The notes under the pieces were generated by a model that did not search any database, was not told the DNA's origin, and was given only the letters and a program-made list of their open reading frames with translations. A stretch of 38,063 bases of DNA from Myxococcales bacterium (lineage in GTDB: Bacteria > Myxococcota_A > Polyangia > Polyangiales > Polyangiaceae). How positions within the stretch are numbered: the stretch's first letter is position 1; the number at the start of each line of letters is the position of its first letter. Made by a program: the position numbers and the translations under genes. Below are positions 6,232 through 33,113 of the stretch, piece after piece. Location: positions 1-38,063 of the forward strand of contig SHZB01000013.1 in NCBI GenBank assembly GCA_009692485.1, written 5' to 3'.

Positions 6232-7586
6232 GCGGGCCCGACGAAGAACGCCAGCGCCAGGCCGAATCCGATGCGGCGCGCGATAGGACCTACGCCGCCC
6301 AGCTCATCGCGTGCTGCAACGCCTCGATGAAGATGATGCGCGTTCACAAGAGGGACAACGAAGCCGTCCTGAAGCTCGTTCATGCGCTGCAACAGAGCCT
6401 CGAAATGCTGAAAGAGCACTACGCCCCCCGCGTCGCGCTCGCCTACGTCGAGGGCGTTTATTACCTCGGAGACAATCGCCTTCGGCTCTCGCCAGCCCAG
6501 GAGCCCATCGCCGAGCAGCTTGCGCGTGAGTTCGGACGGCGCGGACTGGGCGGCTTCAGCTTTGAGGGAACGCCTTCCGAAGCGGAGCTCATGGATTTCT
6601 TCTCCGTGCTCGATAACCATCGCGAGGGGCAGAACGTCGCGGCGCTTCGCAACGAACTGCGCGTCAAGGGCGTCACCCACATCACGGTCTCGAAGGTGAT
6701 GCGCCCGATCACGGACGTGAAAGGAGAGGGCGGCAAGAAGGAGAACCTGCATCGCGCGGCCGACGTCTTTTCGATGGCGATTCGACACATGGCGGCGTCC
6801 CTTCGCGACAAGGGCGCAAGCTCCAACGCGCGCGGCAAGCGCATCGTTCACGAGTTCGTCGATCTGGCGGACAAAGACCCCCTCATGTTGCTGGGGCTCG
6901 CGGGCCTGCGCGGCACCGGCTCCGATGAAAGTGAGCACAGCGTCGCCGTCTCTGCTCTCTCGATCGCCCTCGGGATGCGCATCGGGCTAAATCGCAATCT
7001 CCTCGCCGATCTCGGCTTTGCCGCACTTCAGCATGACGCGGCGCTGATCGAGCTTGGTCCGGCGCACACGAACGACACTGCGCGCCATCCACTTCGGGCG
7101 CTGCGGGCTTTGACGCCGGCAAATCTCGATCTGCGCCAGCTGCGCCAGATCGTCAGCTCGTTCGAACACCATCGCGACTACGTCGGCGGAGGGGAGCCGC
7201 GCATCATGGGCGCGCCGCGGCCGCACCTGTTCTCCTTGATCATTCGAATCGCGAATGACTTTGACGGCGCGACACGCGGGCGGCGAGGGGCCAACCCCTG
7301 CGAAGTTCCGGAGGCCGTCGCACGCCTCTACCGTGGACGCGGCAACGCCTACCACCCGCAGCTCGTCGATCTCTTCGTCGACATGATCGGCGGCGTCGAG
7401 CTTGCCCCGCCTCCAGCTCCCGTCTCGACACGAAACGCCGGGCTCGATCTCATGCTCGCCGATTTTCTCGACAAGAAAGAAGAAGTCGAGGATGTCATCC
7501 GCGCATCCGCGAAAGCCCCGCCTCCGGCCAAGAAGAACGCCATCGGCATGCTCAAGCTGAAGAAGCTGGCCAAAAAGAAAAACTAG
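6228..7586 (+). CDS. Degenerate HD-GYP domain protein
   Basis: The start ATG at 6228 overlaps the upstream stop (ATGA). Residues about 22-133 match the pattern of the upstream protein's N-terminus (helical start, YVEGVYYLGDNRLRL, EFGRRGLGGFSFEGTPSEAELMDFFSVLDNH). Residues about 230-350 resemble an HD-GYP domain: EH at 236-237 in the first metal-ligand helix, QHDAA at 268-272 (normally HDIGK), EHH at 313-315 followed by GGEP where active enzymes have GYP, then RIANDFDGAT (normally the D-FD-T motif). HD-GYP proteins hydrolyse cyclic di-GMP. Here the HD pair and the second His pair remain, but GYP is GEP and the HDIGK Lys is lost, so it may be a receptor or an altered phosphodiesterase. It ends in a Lys-rich tail (KLKKLAKKKN). 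Confidence 0.75.
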   Translation: MSGPDEERQRQAESDAARDRTYAAQLIACCNASMKMMRVHKRDNEAVLKLVHALQQSLEMLKEHYAPRVALAYVEGVYYLGDNRLRLSPAQEPIAEQLAREFGRRGLGGFSFEGTPSEAELMDFFSVLDNHREGQNVAALRNELRVKGVTHITVSKVMRPITDVKGEGGKKENLHRAADVFSMAIRHMAASLRDKGASSNARGKRIVHEFVDLADKDPLMLLGLAGLRGTGSDESEHSVAVSALSIALGMRIGLNRNLLADLGFAALQHDAALIELGPAHTNDTARHPLRALRALTPANLDLRQLRQIVSSFEHHRDYVGGGEPRIMGAPRPHLFSLIIRIANDFDGATRGRRGANPCEVPEAVARLYRGRGNAYHPQLVDLFVDMIGGVELAPPPAPVSTRNAGLDLMLADFLDKKEEVEDVIRASAKAPPPAKKNAIGMLKLKKLAKKKN

Positions 7587-7743
7587 CTCGGCTGCCCGGC
7601 TACTCCGCAGCTCGGCTGCTCTGCTACTCCGCAGCTCTGCCTCCCGGCTACTCCGCAGCTCTGCCTCCCGGCTACTCCGCAGCTCGGCTGCTCTGCTAGT
7701 CCGCAGCTCTGCCTCTCGGCTACTCCGCTACTCTGCCGCACTG
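7585..7743. repeat. 24-bp tandem repeat, about 6.6 copies
   Basis: Six units start at 7600, 7624, 7648, 7672, 7696 and 7720, each beginning CTACTCCGCAGCTC (with small changes in the last two), preceded by a partial unit. Units 2 and 3 are identical, and units 1 and 4 are identical, which suggests duplication of larger blocks. The array fills the gap between two convergent genes and starts at the stop codon of the HD-GYP-like gene. Its period is a multiple of three and it is open in several frames, but no start or export signal supports a gene. Confidence 0.9.
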
Positions 7744-21712: not shown

Positions 21713-24700
21713 TCAAAGCTCGACGCGGCTCGTGCCGGCCGGCAGGGTCGCTGCACGCACTGCGACGGTGAAGTTCTTGTTGTCCCACCGTAGCTCGTGG
21801 ACGTGGACGCGGAGATCCTCGTCGCGCGGCTCGGTGCGGAGGCGGGCGCTCCATCGCGCTTGCGTCGCGGTCGGCGGCAGCAGCACCGAAGAGAGCCCGA
21901 CGGCGGCAGCGTCGGTGACTTCGCCGACGGCCGCGGCATCACCCGCAAGGACGGCGTCGAGCTCGAGCTGACTGACGAGATCTTCCCAGGTGAGCAGGAT
22001 GAGCGTGCCTGGGCCCGCGAACAGGCCAAGCTCTTTGAGCTCGCGCTCGATCGACGAGGTCGGCTGTCCGCCCGGCGGCTTGTCGAGCAGGCGCGCGAGC
22101 CTGGCGGCGGAGGCCAAGCGTGCGAAGCGGCGCGGATCTTCCGGACCCGGTCGCCCTTCACCCGAAGCGACTTTGCGTTCGAGTCGCAGCGCCTCGTCGG
22201 TGCGGCCCGCGCCCGCTGCTGCCGAGGCGAGTCGCAACCAGCTCAAAGGGTCATTCGGTGCCATCTCCGTCGCGGTCTTGAATTGGCGATAGGCCAGCTC
22301 GTACCAGCCGCGCGCGAGGTAGATGTCCCCAAGCAAACGCCGGGAATCGAGCTGTTTCGGGTCGAATTCGACGATCTCGGAATAGGTGCGAATCGCCTCG
22401 TCCTCATGGTTGTTACGGGACAACACATCGCCGAGCTGACGCGCCATTTGAATGGTGAGTATTCCCGAATCGCGCAGTCTGCGGCCGAGTCCGAGCGCCT
22501 CCTCGACGCGGCCCGCTCTTGCCAATAGCCGCACCATGCGAATCTCGCCGTTCGGATCGCCGGGGGCGCGCAAGATGGCCTCGCGCAGCTTCTCGATGCG
22601 GTCGTCGAGTTTCTCGCGCTCGGACAATTCGCGGTCGACCGCGAGCCAGTCCACGCGATTGCCAAATAGGGCAGATTGGAGTGCCGCGATGATGTGCGCG
22701 TCGGTGGTGCGACGGAGGATGAGCCGCGCGAGGAATTTCTGCACCTCGGGGCGCGGCGCGAAATGGCCGACGACGATGCGCGCGCTGGCCTCGGTGGCGA
22801 CGCGAAGCTGAAGGATGCGGAGAAATTCGCGCTCTGCCAGCCAGTCGTTCAGCTCGCACGCGCGCACGGCGGCGACGTAACGCTCGATCAACTCCGCCGC
22901 GTTGGTCGCGGTGCGAATGCGCTTACGCCACACCGGCAAGCGATGCTCGAGCGGGCGCGCCGCGACGTCGCTACACACGGTCGGGACGACGACGCCGGGT
23001 GGCCGCACCCCCCAGCCCGCATTGGTGCCTTGTGCCCCCCGCCCGAGGCCTTCGCCGACGCCCTTGCCGACGCCCTTGCCGTCGCGTGCCGCGGAGTCTG
23101 GAGCAGGCGTCGCGCTCGTGGGCTTCATCGTGCGCGGGGGCACCCCGGCCATGGGCGCGGCTCCCGTCGCCGTCGCGGAAGGTCCGCCGCCTTTGAAGCG
23201 CAGCCCGCCCGCGGCGTCGTCGAGGCTCGCGTCTGCCTCCTCGCTGTGTTTGCGGTCGGCGCCGCTCCGGCCGAGGCGCCCCTGCTCCCCGGTCGCGCCG
23301 GAGGGGCCGGCCAATTTCTCGGAGATCTGGTCGAGTGCATGTTTGTCTTCTCCGTCGCTAGGGCCTGCCGCCCCCTCCATCGCGGGCGAGGCGGGCACGT
23401 CATCACCCTCGGATCGCCTCGCACCGCTGCCGAGCGCACGGCTGCTGCCGCCCTCGCGCTCCCCGCCGCCTTCGGAATTGGCACGTGCGGGCTCTTCTTC
23501 GGAGGATTGTGATGCCTCTCGCTTGTCGCAGCCGAAGGCGACGCCCGTCGCGCCTGCGGGATGCTCGCGAGTGCTGCGTTCTTCTTCGAGCGGCGTGAGC
23601 AGGCCGAGGCGGATACCACGCAATCTCGACCTGCTGCGTTGGATATTCATGCGAGAGTAAGATGCCTCGCTGTCGAGCGCGAGGATGCTCGAGAAGGGCG
23701 TGACGATCCCATATTCGAGGCCGAGCGACGCGATGCGACCGCGCTCGGTGTCGGGTCCGCCGGCGGCACCGAGCAAGTGCCGCACGTACTCGGACGCCCA
23801 CAGTCGCGGCACGAACGAGGACACGATCGAGCGGTCGATGACGACCTTCGCCTTGCGCTCGAAGCTCTCGCCGGCGAGGCGGCCGCGCACGGTGACTTCG
23901 CTGGGCAGCTCGTGGTGGGTGCGCGCGAGCACGGTGACGCCACTGTCGCGCGAGATCTTGCCACTGGCGCTGGCGAAGGGCTCGTCGAGGCCCGCGCCGA
24001 GATCGAGCGAAAAGTCCGTAATTGTGGGCTCTTTTATGGCCGCGGCGAGCTCGAGCGCGGTCGGAGTTGCGCGTGCATCTTGGTCGATGCGAAACGAGCG
24101 GCCACCGCCGGACCGCGCGAGGGCATCGAGCAGCGCGTGGTCGGCATCCGCGCCGACGGCCACGGTGAAGAGGCGCGCGCGCGAGCTGGAGAGGGCACGC
24201 CGCAGTCGCTCGGCGAGGGCTTCCCCGGTCGTCTCGCCGCTCGTCGCGATGCCGTCGCCGACGTACACGACCGCGGGCTGCTCGCTGTCGTGCAAGAGCG
24301 CGAGCGAGGGCTCGAACATCGCCGCAAGATCAGTGGCGCCGCTGGGAGCGATGCCCGCGAGCGCCTCGAGCGCCTTGGCGATCTCGCTGTCGCTGGCGGG
24401 CGCGAGGCCCGCTTGCGGATAGAGCACGCGCGGGCGCACATCGAGCGCGATGACAGCGAAGCGGTCCTTGTCGCTGAGCGAGCGCGCGAGGGCCTCGACC
24501 GCGGCGCGCTGTAGCTGCCGCGCCGACTCGTCTCCGCCCGCCGACGTGTCCGCGACGATCACGACCGCGGCCGGAACCGGCTTCACCTTGGCCCAGTCGA
24601 CGTCGGGGACGTAGCGCGCCATCACGTAGTCGGCGCTGCCGTCTTGCGCCGCAAAACGCGCGACACTCAAGGTTGGGCGCGCTTCGAGCAGGGTCGCTTC

Positions 24701-25978
24701 GAGCTGAAAATCGGCCCGCGGCGTGAACCCGCTGCGGCGCATCGTCACGCGCGTGCCGCCCTGCTCGATGCGCGCGTCCGCGACGGTGGCAAGCTTCATC
24801 TTCTTGCCCTCCTCGCCGAGCTCCACCGTGAGGGACAATTCGCCGATGCGTACCGGTGATTGGCCGAGCGGATAAACGTAGGTGAGCTTCTTCTCGAGGA
24901 TCGGCCGAAGCTCGAGGTACCGGAGCACGACGCGTCTCGCGCCCGATGCCGGCACCGGATAAATGCGCGCGCGGTAGCTGCGACCATCGACCCACTCGAG
25001 GATCGCGGGCGAGAGCCCCGACTCGCGTGCGCCCACGTATTTTTGTGCGGCTTCGCGCTGCTCGACGAATTCACCTTCCACGAGCACGCCATTGGTCTCG
25101 ACCGCGAAGCCCGTGACGCTCGCGCCCGCCGGCACGCTGAACCAGTACCAACCCTCGACGGCGCGCGGATGCGGATTGAAGAAGGTTTGATCGACGGTGG
25201 TCTCGGCCAGGCCGCTCTTGATGACCGCGCGGATGGTTTGGCTCTTGAGCTGCATTCGCGAGGCGGGCGTGCCGGGCAAGGCACCCGCGTCGATGCCAAA
25301 GATCGTTCCGCTGCCGGCCCCGAGCGCGAGCCCACCGGCGACGTCGGCCATGCCGCCGGTCCAGTCGTCCCAGAACGCGACGGGCGTAACGGCGGGAGCG
25401 TCGGCGCCCTTCACACTCGCGCGGGTTCCGGCTGCAACCTCGACGCGACCGCCCTTCGCGGTCACGACGGCGAGCCCGCGCGCGACGTAGACCGCGGCGC
25501 CGTCGGCCGTGCGCGCCACGGACATCGCGGCGTCGGCGGCCGAGACGCTCACGTCCCCAAGTTTGTGCGTCAGCGGCTCGCGCTCGACCGGCGGGATGTC
25601 GAGCCAGTACTCGCCTTGCTCGAGCTCGACGCTCGTCGCGAGCAGTTTCAGCGTGGTGCCGGCGCGGAGAAATAACGTCGAGCCATCGGGCAGCCGCACG
25701 AGCGCGCGGGCTCCTTCACCGGCGCGCACGACTGAGCCTTCGAGCAGCGGCGTGCCCGAGCTTGCGCGCACACCATCGGCGCCGCCGAGGCTTGGATGCA
25801 CGACGACGACGTCGCCTGCCGCCAGCTCGAGCCGCGCCTGGATCGAGGCCGCGACGGTTGGCCCGACACCTTGCGATTTGATGATGACGACGATCGCGGC
25901 GATGGCACCGAGCGCCATGACGATGAAGAGAGCCCGCCGCAGCAGCAGCCTCCCGCTCGAGCTTTTCGAAGCTGTCAT
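21713..25978 (-). CDS. FecR-VIT-vWA-TPR multidomain membrane protein
   Basis: A 1421-residue protein. A signal anchor (ALFIVMALGAIAAIVVIIK, about 15-34) is followed by a FecR-like domain (about 55-190: SVVRAGEGARALVRLPDGSTLFLRAGTTLKLL), a VIT domain (about 240-360: VDQTFFNPHPRAVEGWYWFSVPAGASVTGF) and a von Willebrand A domain (about 468-620). A disordered Gly/Ser/Glu-rich linker (about 800-990) and TPR-like helices (about 1110-1270: AIRTYSEIVEFDPKQLDSRRLLGDIYLARGWYELAYRQFKTATEMAPNDP) follow. In the vWA metal site the first motif is DTSAG at 477-481 where DxSxS is usual; T549 and D575 are present. It is the second gene of an operon after another vWA gene (63-bp gap). It probably works in the periplasm or on the cell surface; ligand is unknown. 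Confidence 0.88.
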   Translation of the reverse strand: MTASKSSSGRLLLRRALFIVMALGAIAAIVVIIKSQGVGPTVAASIQARLELAAGDVVVVHPSLGGADGVRASSGTPLLEGSVVRAGEGARALVRLPDGSTLFLRAGTTLKLLATSVELEQGEYWLDIPPVEREPLTHKLGDVSVSAADAAMSVARTADGAAVYVARGLAVVTAKGGRVEVAAGTRASVKGADAPAVTPVAFWDDWTGGMADVAGGLALGAGSGTIFGIDAGALPGTPASRMQLKSQTIRAVIKSGLAETTVDQTFFNPHPRAVEGWYWFSVPAGASVTGFAVETNGVLVEGEFVEQREAAQKYVGARESGLSPAILEWVDGRSYRARIYPVPASGARRVVLRYLELRPILEKKLTYVYPLGQSPVRIGELSLTVELGEEGKKMKLATVADARIEQGGTRVTMRRSGFTPRADFQLEATLLEARPTLSVARFAAQDGSADYVMARYVPDVDWAKVKPVPAAVVIVADTSAGGDESARQLQRAAVEALARSLSDKDRFAVIALDVRPRVLYPQAGLAPASDSEIAKALEALAGIAPSGATDLAAMFEPSLALLHDSEQPAVVYVGDGIATSGETTGEALAERLRRALSSSRARLFTVAVGADADHALLDALARSGGGRSFRIDQDARATPTALELAAAIKEPTITDFSLDLGAGLDEPFASASGKISRDSGVTVLARTHHELPSEVTVRGRLAGESFERKAKVVIDRSIVSSFVPRLWASEYVRHLLGAAGGPDTERGRIASLGLEYGIVTPFSSILALDSEASYSRMNIQRSRSRLRGIRLGLLTPLEEERSTREHPAGATGVAFGCDKREASQSSEEEPARANSEGGGEREGGSSRALGSGARRSEGDDVPASPAMEGAAGPSDGEDKHALDQISEKLAGPSGATGEQGRLGRSGADRKHSEEADASLDDAAGGLRFKGGGPSATATGAAPMAGVPPRTMKPTSATPAPDSAARDGKGVGKGVGEGLGRGAQGTNAGWGVRPPGVVVPTVCSDVAARPLEHRLPVWRKRIRTATNAAELIERYVAAVRACELNDWLAEREFLRILQLRVATEASARIVVGHFAPRPEVQKFLARLILRRTTDAHIIAALQSALFGNRVDWLAVDRELSEREKLDDRIEKLREAILRAPGDPNGEIRMVRLLARAGRVEEALGLGRRLRDSGILTIQMARQLGDVLSRNNHEDEAIRTYSEIVEFDPKQLDSRRLLGDIYLARGWYELAYRQFKTATEMAPNDPLSWLRLASAAAGAGRTDEALRLERKVASGEGRPGPEDPRRFARLASAARLARLLDKPPGGQPTSSIERELKELGLFAGPGTLILLTWEDLVSQLELDAVLAGDAAAVGEVTDAAAVGLSSVLLPPTATQARWSARLRTEPRDEDLRVHVHELRWDNKNFTVAVRAATLPAGTSRVEL

Positions 25979-26041: not shown

Positions 26042-27538
26042 TCAGAAGGAAAGACCGTCGGATGCGGCGCTGTTTCGTTTCATGCCGGCTTTACCACGTT
26101 GGATGTCCGCTGGCGCGGCATTGGCTGCTGCCGGCGGCGGCGCGGCGAAACCCTCCGAGGCCTGATGGAGGGCATCGTCTTGGCGCGCGAAGTCGCGGTC
26201 GAGCTCGGCCTTGCGAGGAGCGGACGCGCGGGGTGCGGCATCGGCTGCGACCTTCTTCAGCGCGGCCCGTTTGTGTTCGACGAGACGCCGCGCGCCCTCG
26301 TTGTCGCCGCTTGCGAAGCGGTCATTGGCCTCGATGAGCAGCGCCGCGGTTTGGCTACGCTCGATGCGACCGGCGACGAGCGGATCGATGGGGGAGAGCT
26401 CCGAATCATCGCCCGTGAGCTCTGCGACTAAAGAGCCCGTGCAGCTGCCCGGCTCGAGCGTGACGTGGTCGCGGAAGGTGAGCTTCGCCGTGGCGACGGG
26501 TCGCTCGCCAGCGGGACCGCGCGGCAGTCGCACGCGCACGAGCAGCGTCTTGTCGTCGGTCGTACCGAACGAGCCCATGGGCACGACGAGCGTGTCCCCC
26601 TCGCGCGAAAAAGCGCGGTCAAACACCTCGAGCACCTCGACCCCGCGGGCCAGCTCGACCCGCAACTCGGCTCCCGTCGCGATGGTGTTGGCGAGTGAAC
26701 GCTGCTCTTCCTCGAACACCGCCGCGAGCTCTGCCGGACTAGCGACGAAGGTGTGTCGCCCGTTCGAGCCGCGCGCGATCTGGCTCATGATGCGCTCGTT
26801 GTAGTCGACGTCGACACCGATGGCGCTGATACTCGCGCCGAGATTGCGCGCACGCGTGGCGATGGTGGCGAAGCCGCTCACGTCGCGCACGCCGGCCGTC
26901 GGCTCGCCGTCGCTCAAGAGCACGATGCGCTTCACACCGTCCGTTCGCGCTGCGAGCTGGCTCATGGCGCTCTCGAGCCCGCACGAAATGCACGTGTTGC
27001 CGCCGGCGACGATGCCGTCGATGCGCCGCAGAACATCGCTGCGGTTGAACGACGAGATGCGGGTCGGCGGCACGAGCAGCTCGCTGCGATCGTCATAGGC
27101 CGTGATGCTGACGAGGTCCCCGTCGCGCAGGCGGCTCACCAGTCCGCGCGCCGCTGCGATCGCGTTGGTGAGGCGATGGCCGCTCATCGAGCCGGAGCGA
27201 TCCACCACGATCGCGAGCTCGAGCGGGGGCGCCTCTTTCGGCACGACGCCGAGCGCGGCCTTCACATCGAGGAAGAGATACGTCTCGTTGTCGCGGTCGG
27301 CGGCGAGCTTGGCGTGGCCGAGGCGCCCCTCGACCGTGAGGGTGCGACCATCGACGAAGTTCCAGCGGTCGCCCGTGCGCGTGCGCCCCACAACTTTGTC
27401 TGAGCCTTGCAGATCACCGAGCTCGGCACCCGGCTCGGCGACCGCGAGCGCGCGACCGGACGGAGTCAGCGACCACACGGTCACGCTGGTGAGCATCATG
27501 GCGGCGACGGACACGAGGGCGACGGTCTTCAGCTTCAT
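26042..27538 (-). CDS. von Willebrand A domain protein, exported
   Basis: A 498-residue protein. GAGGAG lies about 8 bp before the ATG at 27538, and an N-terminal hydrophobic segment ([19 protein letters not shown]) follows, so this start is preferred over an upstream one. The vWA domain (about 106-290) has a canonical MIDAS: DRSGS at 113-117, then the Thr region ([14 protein letters not shown]) and LLSDGEP. Downstream is a beta-rich region (about 295-400: [36 protein letters not shown]) and a helical, Ala-rich charged tail, matching the YfbK/batB-like protein layout. Two close Cys residues (TCISC) sit in the metal-ligand loop. It is the first gene of the operon with the FecR-VIT-vWA protein. 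Confidence 0.88.
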
Positions 27539-27889
27539 GGCGGGCTCTCCTCGACGCGGGAACGCGCCGGTCGTGGGGTGACTTACAGCGGCTCGTGCCC
27601 GGTAATCGCGCAGGCTCGAGCAAGGTGGCGGCTTGGACGCCTGCCCCTCGGCGAAAGTTTCATTCGCTCGCGCACGCGGGGCATTTTGCGGGAATGCGAA
27701 CATCATCGCCGCGACTGCGACCATTCGCTCGCGCGCGCAGGGCATTTTCGTTTCAATCACCGGGAGCACGATCATCGCTGCGGCCGTGGCGGGAGCTTTG
27801 TGCCGCTCGCGGTTGTTTTCCCTTGCCCGATTTGGCGCGGGACCGTATCAGCACGGGCCCAACGCTCCCTTTCCTTCGCCCGGCGACCA
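27539..27889. other. Divergent spacer with a 61-bp-offset direct repeat
   Basis: This 351-bp stretch between the vWA gene and the EF-G gene holds no convincing ORF. CATTCGCTCGCGCACGCGGG at 27661 recurs as CATTCGCTCGCGCGCGCAGG at 27722, each followed by GCATTTT. No consensus promoter was identified, though both genes should be transcribed from here. Confidence 0.6.
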
Positions 27890-30037
<2,148 letters not shown>

Positions 30038-30058
30038 TTTCTCGGAAGATAAGGGGCG

Positions 30059-30106
30059 CGGAAGTTGAGCGTCGCGGAAGTTGAGCGTCGCGGAAGTTGA
30101 GCGTCG
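30059..30106. repeat. 16-bp tandem repeat, three perfect copies
   Basis: CGGAAGTTGAGCGTCG repeats at 30059, 30075 and 30091 without a mismatch, in the spacer between the EF-G gene and the ATPase-SLOG gene. Confidence 0.92.
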
Positions 30107-30154
30107 GCGTCGCGTCGATGGATGCGGTGCACTAGGGCAAGAGTGAACGTGGGC

Positions 30155-31693
30155 ATGTACCGCAAAGAAGTGAGCGAGCGGAGCCCCATGCGGGTATTCG
30201 AGCGCTCCATCCACGGCGGGCTCGGGCGCGGCAACGTGGGCGCCGTCGTGTCGCGCGTGGGGCTCGGCAAATCGGCGTTGCTCATACAGTTTGCGCTCGA
30301 CGATCTCATGCGCGACCGCAAGGTTTTGCATATCTCGCACGAAGCCCCGGTCGATCGCGTGCGCTCGTTCTACGACGAGATCTTCCACGAGATGTCGCTC
30401 GCCTATCAAATCGCGCAGCCACAGAGCGTGCGCCTCGAGATCGAGCGTAACCGGCTCATCTTCTCGCTCCTCGATACGGGCTCTGTTTCATCGGCGCCTT
30501 CCGACGAGCGTCCGTCGCAGCGTTCATCGGCGCCTTCCGACGAGCGTCCGTCGCAGCGTTCATCGGCGCCTTCCGACGAGCGTCAGTCGCAGCGTTCATC
30601 GGCGCCTTCCGACGAGCGTCAGTCGCAGCGTTCATCGGCGCCTTCCGACGAGCGTCAGTCGCAGCGCTCGCTCGTGGCGGGCCCAGTCTCGGCGCGCGGT
30701 GGCAGTTCCTCGGTGACGAAGATCGAACAGACCGTGCGCTTCGCTCGCGAGGTGGCGCAATTTCAACCCCACACGATCATCGTGGACGGCTTCGACTTCG
30801 ACGGCGCGACGCCTGGAGCGATGACGGCCCTCGGCGCACTTGCCCGCGAGGCCGGCGCGGAGCTGTGGCTATCGGCGAAGAGCGCGATGCACGCCTCGCT
30901 GAACGAAGGGACGGCCATGCCGCCCGCGCGCGCCTCGACCCCAGAGCCCCTCCGCCGCTTCTTCGAACATCTGCAGGTCATCTTGACCTTGGAGAGTGAC
31001 GGCGACGACGTGCGCCTTCAGCTCCTCAAAGATCACGACAACCTCGAGATCTCGGAGCTTCATCTCTCGCTGCATCCAACGACGATGCGCGTCGTCACGG
31101 ACGAGCTTCCGGTGGCGCAAGAGTCCCCGCGAGATCCGCGCCGGTTTCACTTGTTTTCAGGCGGCGCGCAGGGTGCGGAGGCTTCGTTCGGTGCGTGCGC
31201 CGAGCGCTGGGGATGCGAGGAGACGCACTTCAGCTTCGAGGGACATCCGTTCTGCGCACGCGAGCGCGGACGCGTCATCCTCGGCGAAGAAGAGCTCACC
31301 AAGGGCGACTTCAGCCTTGTCTACGTCGCGCATCGGCTCAAGCGCCCGCTGAGCCAGATCCCCAACATCAAGCGCATCCTTCAAACGGTGTGGCATCAGA
31401 TCAGCCAGGCCGAAGAGGTCTTCGTCGTCGGCTCGCTGCAAGAGGACGGCACCGTGCGCGGCGGCACCGGCTGGGGCGCCGAGCTCGCACGCCTCTGGAA
31501 CAAACCGATTTACGTGTTCGATCAGGAAAAGGCCGCGTGGCTCCGCTGGGACACGACCCGCTGGGAGCGAGACGAGAGGCCCATCATTCGACGCCACAAC
31601 TTCGCGGGGCTCGGCACGACTCGCCTCAGCGGCGAGGGAAAAAAGGCGATCGAGCAACTTTTCGCGCGGAGCTTCGGCGACTCGCAGCGCTGA
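30155..31693 (+). CDS. RecA/KaiC-like ATPase fused to a SLOG domain, with five 12-residue repeats
   Basis: About 512 residues from the ATG at 30155; starts at 30122 or 30188 are also possible (codons before 30143 look non-coding). The N-terminal P-loop region reads VFERSIHGGLGRGNVGAVVSRVGLGKSALL, a Walker A with GLGKS at 36-40, and a Walker B-like IIVDGFDFD at about 208-216, as in RecA/KaiC ATPases. Five copies of SSAPSDER(P/Q)SQR (about 112-171) separate them. The C-terminal domain (about 331-480) resembles SLOG nucleotide-binding domains: LFSGGAQGAEASFG, a middle region with EVFVVGSLQ, then VRGGTGWGAELARLWNKPIYVFDQ and a WLRWD motif. SLOG domains bind or process nucleotide-derived ligands. 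No standard defence neighbour is seen; EF-G lies upstream and PFK downstream on the same strand. The fold assignments are by pattern and not confirmed by structure. Confidence 0.72.
   Translation: MYRKEVSERSPMRVFERSIHGGLGRGNVGAVVSRVGLGKSALLIQFALDDLMRDRKVLHISHEAPVDRVRSFYDEIFHEMSLAYQIAQPQSVRLEIERNRLIFSLLDTGSVSSAPSDERPSQRSSAPSDERPSQRSSAPSDERQSQRSSAPSDERQSQRSSAPSDERQSQRSLVAGPVSARGGSSSVTKIEQTVRFAREVAQFQPHTIIVDGFDFDGATPGAMTALGALAREAGAELWLSAKSAMHASLNEGTAMPPARASTPEPLRRFFEHLQVILTLESDGDDVRLQLLKDHDNLEISELHLSLHPTTMRVVTDELPVAQESPRDPRRFHLFSGGAQGAEASFGACAERWGCEETHFSFEGHPFCARERGRVILGEEELTKGDFSLVYVAHRLKRPLSQIPNIKRILQTVWHQISQAEEVFVVGSLQEDGTVRGGTGWGAELARLWNKPIYVFDQEKAAWLRWDTTRWERDERPIIRRHNFAGLGTTRLSGEGKKAIEQLFARSFGDSQR
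30488..30667. repeat. 36-bp in-frame tandem repeat, five copies
   Basis: Units start at 30488, 30524, 30560, 30596 and 30632 and encode SSAPSDER(P/Q)SQR. Copies differ at only one or two bases, including the silent or P/Q changes, so the array is young or is being homogenised. It inserts a hydrophilic 60-residue segment into the ATPase domain between its P-loop and Walker B parts. Confidence 0.95.
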
Positions 31694-31775: not shown

Positions 31776-33113
31776 ATGAGCATCTCGGTCAAGAAGGGCG
31801 ACCATATCAAGCGCGTGGGGATCGTCTTCTCCGGCGGGCCAGCGCCCGCGGCAAATGCGGTCATTTCCGCAGCGGCGGTGTCATTTCTCGAGGACGGGCG
31901 CGAGGTCGTCGGCTTCTTCCACGGCTACTCGTCCTTGCAAGACTACGACGCCGTCAAGTGCCCACTCTTGCCGGACGAGCACTTCCGACTGCTCCGAGAG
32001 AAGGACGTCTGCGGCATGAGCAACAGCCGCGGGATCCTCATCGGGACCGCCCGCGCCAACCCCGGCAAAGGCATCGATTCGCGGGACGACCTCGCCGACG
32101 ACAACAAGACGCGGGCCCTCCGCAATGTCTACCGCGCGCTCGTGGACCTCGACGTGGATGCGCTCATTTCGATCGGCGGCGACGACACCCTCAAGACCGC
32201 CAACTTTCTCGTCGAGTACCAAAAGCGGCTTTCTCCGGACGCTCCGCGCGTTCAAGTCGTCCATCTTCCCAAGACGATCGACAACGACTACCGCGGAATC
32301 GACTTCACGTTCGGATTCTTCACGGCTGTCGATTTCATGGCGAAAGAACTCCAAAACCTCAACGCGGACGCCGAGTCGACGCACTCGTATTTCATCGTCG
32401 AGACCATGGGCCGCAAGGCTGGGTGGCTGGCGTACGGGGTCGCGATCGCGGGGGAGGCCAATCTCGTCATCGGCGTTGAAGACGTGTCCGGCGAGCTCGC
32501 GCTGGCCGAGGCCGTGACGGATCAGGCGACGGGCGAAGTTCAGATCGAGACGCGGCTCAACATGGACGCGCTGATCGAGCGCATCGTCTCGCTCATTCTC
32601 ACGCGCGAGCGACGTGGCAAGCATCACGGCACGGTCGTGTTGGCCGAGGGGCTCGCCGAGATGTTGCCCGAGAGCTTTCTGCGTGGACTTCCTCGCGACG
32701 AGCATGGGCACATCTCGCTCGGACGCATCGACCTCGGTAAATTGGTCGCCGAGTTGGTCGGCGAGCGGCTCCAGCGTCGCACCGGCCGCAAGAAGAAGCT
32801 CACCGGCGTGCAGCTCGGCTACGAGTCCCGATGCGCTCCGCCACACGCCTTCGACGTCATGCTCGGCAGCCAACTCGGCATCGGCGCATACCGCGCGCTG
32901 GTCGAAGAGAACCTCGACGGTCACATGGTGAGCGTGAGCGGCCAGCTCAATCTCAACTACGTGCCGTTCAGCGAGCTGGTCGATCCGGTGAGCCTCACGA
33001 CGGAAGTTCGCTTCGTCAAACCCGGCAGCGATTACCACCGGCTCGCAGGCTTCCTCGAGACGCGCGGCGAGAAGACCCGCGAGTGGACTCCCAGCCGGCG
33101 CCCCGAAGGCTGA
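31776..33113 (+). CDS. Pyrophosphate-dependent 6-phosphofructokinase
   Basis: A 445-residue member of the phosphofructokinase family. GGDDT at 134-138 has Asp where ATP-enzymes have Gly (GGDGS), and PKTIDND at 165-171 has Lys in place of Gly; both are hallmarks of the PPi-dependent enzyme. Other family motifs are VGIVFSGGPAPAANAVI near the N-terminus, MGRKAGWLA at 211-219 and LAEGLAE. It phosphorylates fructose 6-phosphate reversibly with pyrophosphate, serving glycolysis and gluconeogenesis. AGCAGG precedes the ATG by about 7 bp. It is 82 bp after the ATPase-SLOG gene and ends 3 bp before the convergent lipoprotein gene. Confidence 0.9.
   Translation: MSISVKKGDHIKRVGIVFSGGPAPAANAVISAAAVSFLEDGREVVGFFHGYSSLQDYDAVKCPLLPDEHFRLLREKDVCGMSNSRGILIGTARANPGKGIDSRDDLADDNKTRALRNVYRALVDLDVDALISIGGDDTLKTANFLVEYQKRLSPDAPRVQVVHLPKTIDNDYRGIDFTFGFFTAVDFMAKELQNLNADAESTHSYFIVETMGRKAGWLAYGVAIAGEANLVIGVEDVSGELALAEAVTDQATGEVQIETRLNMDALIERIVSLILTRERRGKHHGTVVLAEGLAEMLPESFLRGLPRDEHGHISLGRIDLGKLVAELVGERLQRRTGRKKKLTGVQLGYESRCAPPHAFDVMLGSQLGIGAYRALVEENLDGHMVSVSGQLNLNYVPFSELVDPVSLTTEVRFVKPGSDYHRLAGFLETRGEKTREWTPSRRPEG

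Follow-up and report, generated by a model that had tools for sequence, protein, structure and literature searches.

The question raised by this locus is what task is performed by a protein that joins a RecA-fold ATPase to a SLOG domain and is encoded directly behind a translation factor gene. SLOG domains, which bind nucleotide derivatives or cleave them, are known chiefly from signalling and conflict systems. The protein is encoded in a stretch of DNA of 38,063 nt (hereafter the window), and structure prediction, profile searches and gene-order comparisons were used to examine it.

Gene structure and domain layout

The reading frame of the fusion gene is open from 30122 to 31693 on the forward strand and its first ATG is found at 30122. 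The homologues start at the second ATG of this frame (MYRKEV...), which makes 30155 the likely true translation start. Both domains were modelled separately with AF2 rather than as one chain, because the joint alignment for a single model appeared misaligned. The models yielded a RecA-like and a SLOG fold and thereby confirmed the ATPase-SLOG fusion that a sequence-only reading of the window had proposed, with structure prediction as its check. The motifs on which that reading relied, a Walker A-like GLGKS, a Walker B-like IIVDGF, SGGAQGAE and a further C-terminal SLOG motif, were all recovered in the alignments (Table 1). Its author had recognised no described system with this architecture, and literature searches covering open-licence PMC papers likewise found none.

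Table 1. Features of the fusion gene and of the adjoining EF-G gene (window coordinates)
Feature	Position	Strand	Basis
EF-G, subfamily spdEFG1 (translocase type), directly upstream of the fusion gene	27884..30037	+	TIGR00484, 917 bits; KDG insertion
Codons of the spdEFG1 switch-I insertion	28016..28045	+	pattern match, switch I alignment
ATPase-SLOG fusion gene (likely start)	30155..31693	+	ORF reading; start placed by homologues
RecA-fold ATPase domain, repeat loop included	30155..31123	+	AF2 model, fold match, profile
Walker A, SRVGLGKS	30251..30274	+	sequence; GxGK kept in 145/146
Five 36-bp (12-aa) repeats, after the P-loop and before Walker B	30487..30666	+	TRF
Walker B, IIVDGF	30776..30793	+	sequence; acid kept in 145/146
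SLOG domain, YpsA/cpYpsA-like	31154..31672	+	profile match, AF2, 3imk structural match
SGGAQGAE, contains the YpsA-clade GxD/E ligand motif	31157..31180	+	alignment
GGTGW motif of the SLOG domain	31460..31474	+	alignment

Several other genes of the window were recorded. A phosphofructokinase-like gene (31776-33113; about 240 bits to the PPi-type model, below its cut-off) lies downstream of the fusion and also adjoins it in same-genus relatives. Two adjoining VWA genes are located on the minus strand (21713-25978 and 26042-27775), the larger of which has VIT, FecR and TPR matches, and a tandem array of 24/48/72-bp units (7585-7739) directly follows an HD-domain gene ending at 7586.

The RecA-fold ATPase half

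The core of the ATPase model has a pLDDT of about 90, and its top structural matches are relatives of DnaB, T7 gp4, KaiC and RAD51 (Z 17-18.6; Foldseek, VIA-align). The alignment profile of the family matches a DnaB-like helicase (E 5e-11). No Pfam or NCBIfam model was matched above its cut-off, and the KaiC family PF06745 scored 17 bits where 26.6 are set by Pfam. The GxGK of the P-loop and the acid of Walker B are each conserved in 145 of 146 aligned ATPase domains and one His and one Trp are invariant in all of them, a conservation that places these motifs far above chance. As the P-loop and the Walker B acid are near-invariant, the domain likely binds ATP. The catalytic acid that follows strand 2 in DnaB, KaiC and RadA is not a family-wide feature; the respective column, located by alignment to these known families, holds G in 42, D in 37, E in 20 and R in 15 of the 146 sequences, the window protein itself having Glu. 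Since the hydrolysis acid is not conserved throughout the family, its members may be slow or ligand-gated ATPases or mere ATP switches.

The window protein contains the P-loop, the Walker B motif and the RecA fold that the KaiC/RadA/DnaB group shares (KaiC CI domain, DnaB C-terminal domain, PH0284). In contrast to this group, its family consists of a single short domain without the helicase N-terminal part, has its own invariant His and Trp, varies in the catalytic acid, and is linked to EF-G. Weak ATPase matches (E 1e-3 to 1e-6, including loci L193, L194 and L196) resemble DnaB/RadA-type paralogues and were left out of all counts.

The sequence-only reading had also reported five near-perfect 12-residue repeats inserted in the core of this domain. 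The array is real (TRF: 5.0 copies of the 36-bp unit, 99% match, score 346) but is not a family feature, as only 1 of 146 members contains it. The linker that bears it measures 104 aa in the window protein versus 27-49 aa in the 145 other aligned ATPase domains, the loop is modelled with a pLDDT below 50, and the repeats are absent from same-genus relatives. A functional role of the array as a core element was rejected because it is present only in the window protein among the 146 aligned members; it is a private loop expansion, incidental and outside the system.

The SLOG half

The C-terminal 180 residues were modelled with a pLDDT of 96. The best PDB match of this model is 3imk (Z 14.1, rmsd 2.9, 141 of 158 residues), with the next among the matches listed at 5.8; ThsA, YpsA and DprA do not appear among the matches listed, which does not exclude them. 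We take 3imk to be a putative molybdenum carrier with a cpYpsA-type SLOG domain, linked to PF12694. The window domain stays below the Pfam cut-off and does not match PF12694, which was matched weakly by 2 of 24 members (best E 0.018). A search of PDB sequences with the SLOG profile returned nothing meaningful, and the search for a named family in Pfam, NCBIfam and PHROGs gave weak or sub-cut-off matches only, including PHROG 768 ('DprA-like DNA recombination-mediator', E 7e-4).

The YpsA clade has a GxD/E ligand motif (PMC6459960). At this motif, GxE is found in all 128 bacterial SLOG rows with a letter at this position, which SGGAQGAE of the window fits, and GxD in all 40 phage rows. The GGT and W of GGTGW are shared without exception by 129 bacterial and 40 phage rows. 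The fold and the GxD/E and GGT motifs are common to the cpYpsA/putative molybdenum carrier proteins (3imk, PF12694), whereas the window-type SLOG reaches PF12694 only weakly and has an ATPase as fusion partner or translational GTPases as neighbours. By its motifs and model, the domain is of the YpsA/cpYpsA type, and it is predicted to bind or turn over a nucleotide ligand.

Linkage of the ATPase to one EF-G subfamily

The EF-G subfamily spdEFG1 is specialised in translocation; its mitochondrial relative is EFG1. The EF-G encoded upstream of the fusion carries a three-residue KDG insertion in switch I and therefore belongs to spdEFG1 within the spdEFG1/spdEFG2 split EF-G system, as a KD-x insertion at this place marks the subfamily (PMC3150367). 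The sequence-only reading had overlooked this neighbour, which is the decisive piece of context. An ATPase or SLOG partner of this system is not mentioned in the consulted passages of PMC3150367 and PMC4342817, and no description of an ATPase/EF-G pairing was found in the open-licence PMC papers searched.

A first scan detected single-domain ATPase relatives in a Treponema MAG and in four Desulfobulbus/Desulfobulbaceae genomes; EF-G was the gene immediately before the ATPase every time. The wider survey found the ATPase in 141 genomes out of 377 from the window's own phylum (presumably Myxococcota) and in 127 out of 395 from the phylum to which Desulfobulbus rhabdoformis belongs (its name inferred from Desulfobulbus), with the provisos that the genomes are often incomplete MAGs and that the counts are not tree-independent. 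A comparison of gene neighbours across genomes, another check put forward in the sequence-only reading, revealed a nearly constant arrangement: the ATPase lies directly 3' of EF-G and on the same strand in 146 of 147 loci with a readable upstream stretch (median gap 26 bp), these being mostly better-scoring loci from both phyla and one Treponema MAG, near relatives included. The exception is genome G146 (locus L185), in which the ATPase is unlinked from EF-G, and locus coordinates suggest the same for other genomes of its genus.

The switch-I insertion was present in 75 of 75 readable EF-Gs adjoining the ATPase. In the window's phylum, the spdEFG1 marker pattern was found in 128 of the 141 ATPase carriers versus 79 of the 236 non-carriers (p 6e-30). 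The reverse does not hold, and spdEFG1 often occurs without the ATPase. Twenty such loci were taken, two of which were ended by contig edges, and in the remaining 18 nothing similar to the ATPase was found downstream. The ATPase goes with spdEFG1 while spdEFG1 often goes without it, and the ATPase thus appears to be an accessory of spdEFG1.

Two side observations concern such loci. In the window, the gap between the EF-G and ATPase genes contains three perfect 16-bp tandem repeats at 30057-30106 (CGCGGAAGTTGAGCGT). In a same-genus genome (L102; G003:C33, 5780-6325, minus strand), spdEFG1 is followed by no more than the latter half of the SLOG domain; both the ATPase and the SGGA motif are missing, which reflects either a deletion or an assembly fault.

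Fused and separate SLOG genes

The sequence-only reading had suggested that the fusion be searched for in relatives, and it was indeed detected in 78 of the 377 genomes of the window's phylum. The SLOG domain occurs in 125 of these genomes altogether; ATPase and SLOG are separate genes in 37, the ATPase alone is present in 26, SLOG alone in 10 and neither in 226. Among the fusion-free genomes of this phylum the two genes are associated with an odds ratio of 32 (p 2e-21) if kinship is ignored and of 6 (p 0.017) if the test is stratified by family. The second phylum shows a weaker association (odds ratio 3.7, p 1e-7), with fusions in 6 of 395 genomes, SLOG without ATPase in 48 and ATPase without SLOG in 67. 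In each of the four Desulfobulbus genomes whose ATPase stands alone, a lone SLOG is encoded elsewhere; no SLOG gene was found in the Treponema genome with the ATPase.

The neighbourhoods of the unfused SLOG genes were also inspected. No conserved neighbours were found in the window's phylum. In two genomes of the second phylum (L307, L308), SLOG, spdEFG1 and ATPase genes follow one another in a row, and in four genomes without the ATPase a lone SLOG gene lies directly upstream of TypA/BipA (L313, L315, L317, L318). The presence of lone SLOG genes beside both spdEFG1 and TypA indicates that both parts of the fusion are drawn to translational GTPases. Six further lone SLOG genes, all of one SLOG clade, are located just 3' of the XTP pyrophosphatase RdgB/HAM1 (L293, L295, L296, L300, L302, L303).

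SLOG domains in phages

A search of viral contigs with the alignment yielded 220 SLOG stretches, while a single SLOG sequence as query gave no match. The same domain is present in 55 records of deposited phages, either alone or within giant proteins, and both the phage 'DprA-like' SLOG of PHROG 768 and the SLOG segments of giant phage proteins represent it. PMC9503650 assigns most viral SLOGs to a YpsA-like clade and predicts that they act on derivatives of ADP-ribose. Phage and bacterial domains are 27-38% identical and differ in having GxD and GxE, respectively; a quick tree sets all phage rows, as a single group, apart from every bacterial row, and the ATPase partner was not found in the deposited phages. 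The giant proteins with a SLOG segment at L007, L010, L011 and L023 comprise proteins of crAss-like phages reading TAG as Gln and an N4-like virion RNA polymerase.

Alternative explanations

The sequence-only reading had leaned towards a nucleotide-signal defence function resembling Thoeris ThsA, and of its proposal the two-domain fusion stands while the lean towards defence is not supported. In such a system, the SLOG domain would sense a nucleotide made during infection and the ATPase would halt translation via EF-G1. SLOG domains do sense such signals in Thoeris (PMC7272460, PMC11204291), and large phages carry the same domain. Nevertheless, PADLOC gave no hit, plasmid searches gave no match, no recognised defence gene was seen in the 38,063 nt of the window, and the synteny with a core translation gene is fixed. 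A defence island was rejected on the empty PADLOC and plasmid searches, and we regard an anti-phage role as highly improbable. With ThsA the window protein has in common a SLOG domain of a type that binds nucleotide ligands, but ThsA is a SIR2-SLOG protein with a TIR partner. A SIR2 domain and a ThsB TIR gene were looked for at the window locus and are absent; the N-terminal part is the RecA-fold ATPase and the neighbours are EF-G and the phosphofructokinase. A role in DNA recombination, in which a DprA-like SLOG domain would handle single-stranded DNA for the RecA-like ATPase in the way that DprA serves RecA, is very unlikely: the resemblance of the ATPase to RadA, DnaB and RAD51 and the weak 'DprA-like' PHROG match would fit, but 3imk is far ahead of the other structural matches listed for the SLOG domain, and the recurrent neighbours are translational GTPases or HAM1 and no recombination genes.

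It seems somewhat easier to imagine, but still quite unlikely, that the gene is a passenger of the operon, co-transcribed with EF-G and serving another process. The linkage extends over two phyla and concerns spdEFG1 only, and the unfused SLOG reaches the neighbourhoods of spdEFG1 and TypA on its own and from the upstream side, which speaks against a passenger, even though some spdEFG1 genomes are without the ATPase and the genes are unlinked in G146. Doubtful, though deserving more weight, is an enzyme of nucleotide house-cleaning or small-molecule metabolism, in which the SLOG domain cleaves an N-glycosidic bond or similar, the ATPase assists and the position behind EF-G merely provides growth-linked expression. 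LOG-type SLOG enzymes cleave N-glycosidic bonds of nucleotides (PMC9503650), SLOG is found without the ATPase, and one SLOG clade lies next to RdgB/HAM1, which removes non-canonical NTPs. This explanation has to contend with an ATPase that, in both phyla, holds its position after a single EF-G subfamily and with SLOG genes that also adjoin spdEFG1 and TypA.

A candidate accessory factor of translation

The position of the ATPase behind one EF-G type in hundreds of genomes points to what is probably a helper or regulator of translation and not an anti-phage system. We give an even chance to the reading that the protein is an accessory factor of translation, not previously described, that works with spdEFG1. 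Against a translation factor speak the spdEFG1 genomes without the ATPase, the unlinked arrangement in G146, the SLOG genes next to RdgB/HAM1 in one clade, the 48 and 67 second-phylum genomes that have just SLOG or just the ATPase, the variable catalytic acid and the kinship among the genomes counted. In the proposed mechanism, the RecA-fold domain would bind ATP, probably as an oligomer, and serve as a switch. The YpsA/cpYpsA-type SLOG, fused or separate, would bind or cleave a nucleotide-derived ligand and in this way set the state of the switch. In turn, EF-G1, or the ribosome on which it works, would become more or less active or available. In this scheme the two domains, their fused or unfused pairing, the gene order and the limitation to spdEFG1 are observed; what is inferred is that the protein touches EF-G1 or the ribosome and hydrolyses ATP, which ligand it uses and in which sense it regulates. 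More tentatively, and as a possibility we would not favour over its negation, bacteria with the split, mitochondria-type EF-G1 may carry a two-part regulator, an ATP switch and a nucleotide-sensing SLOG, that gates translocation or EF-G1 availability and whose sensor half could also serve TypA/BipA.

Little attention has gone to what accompanied the splitting of EF-G into two factors. An ATPase family conserved right behind spdEFG1 in well over 200 sampled genomes, for which no Pfam or NCBIfam model scores above its cut-off, provides a testable candidate for a missing partner. SLOG nucleotide-ligand domains are now tied to translational GTPases and, if the more tentative reading is true, this would represent a new layer of translational control that responds to a nucleotide signal.
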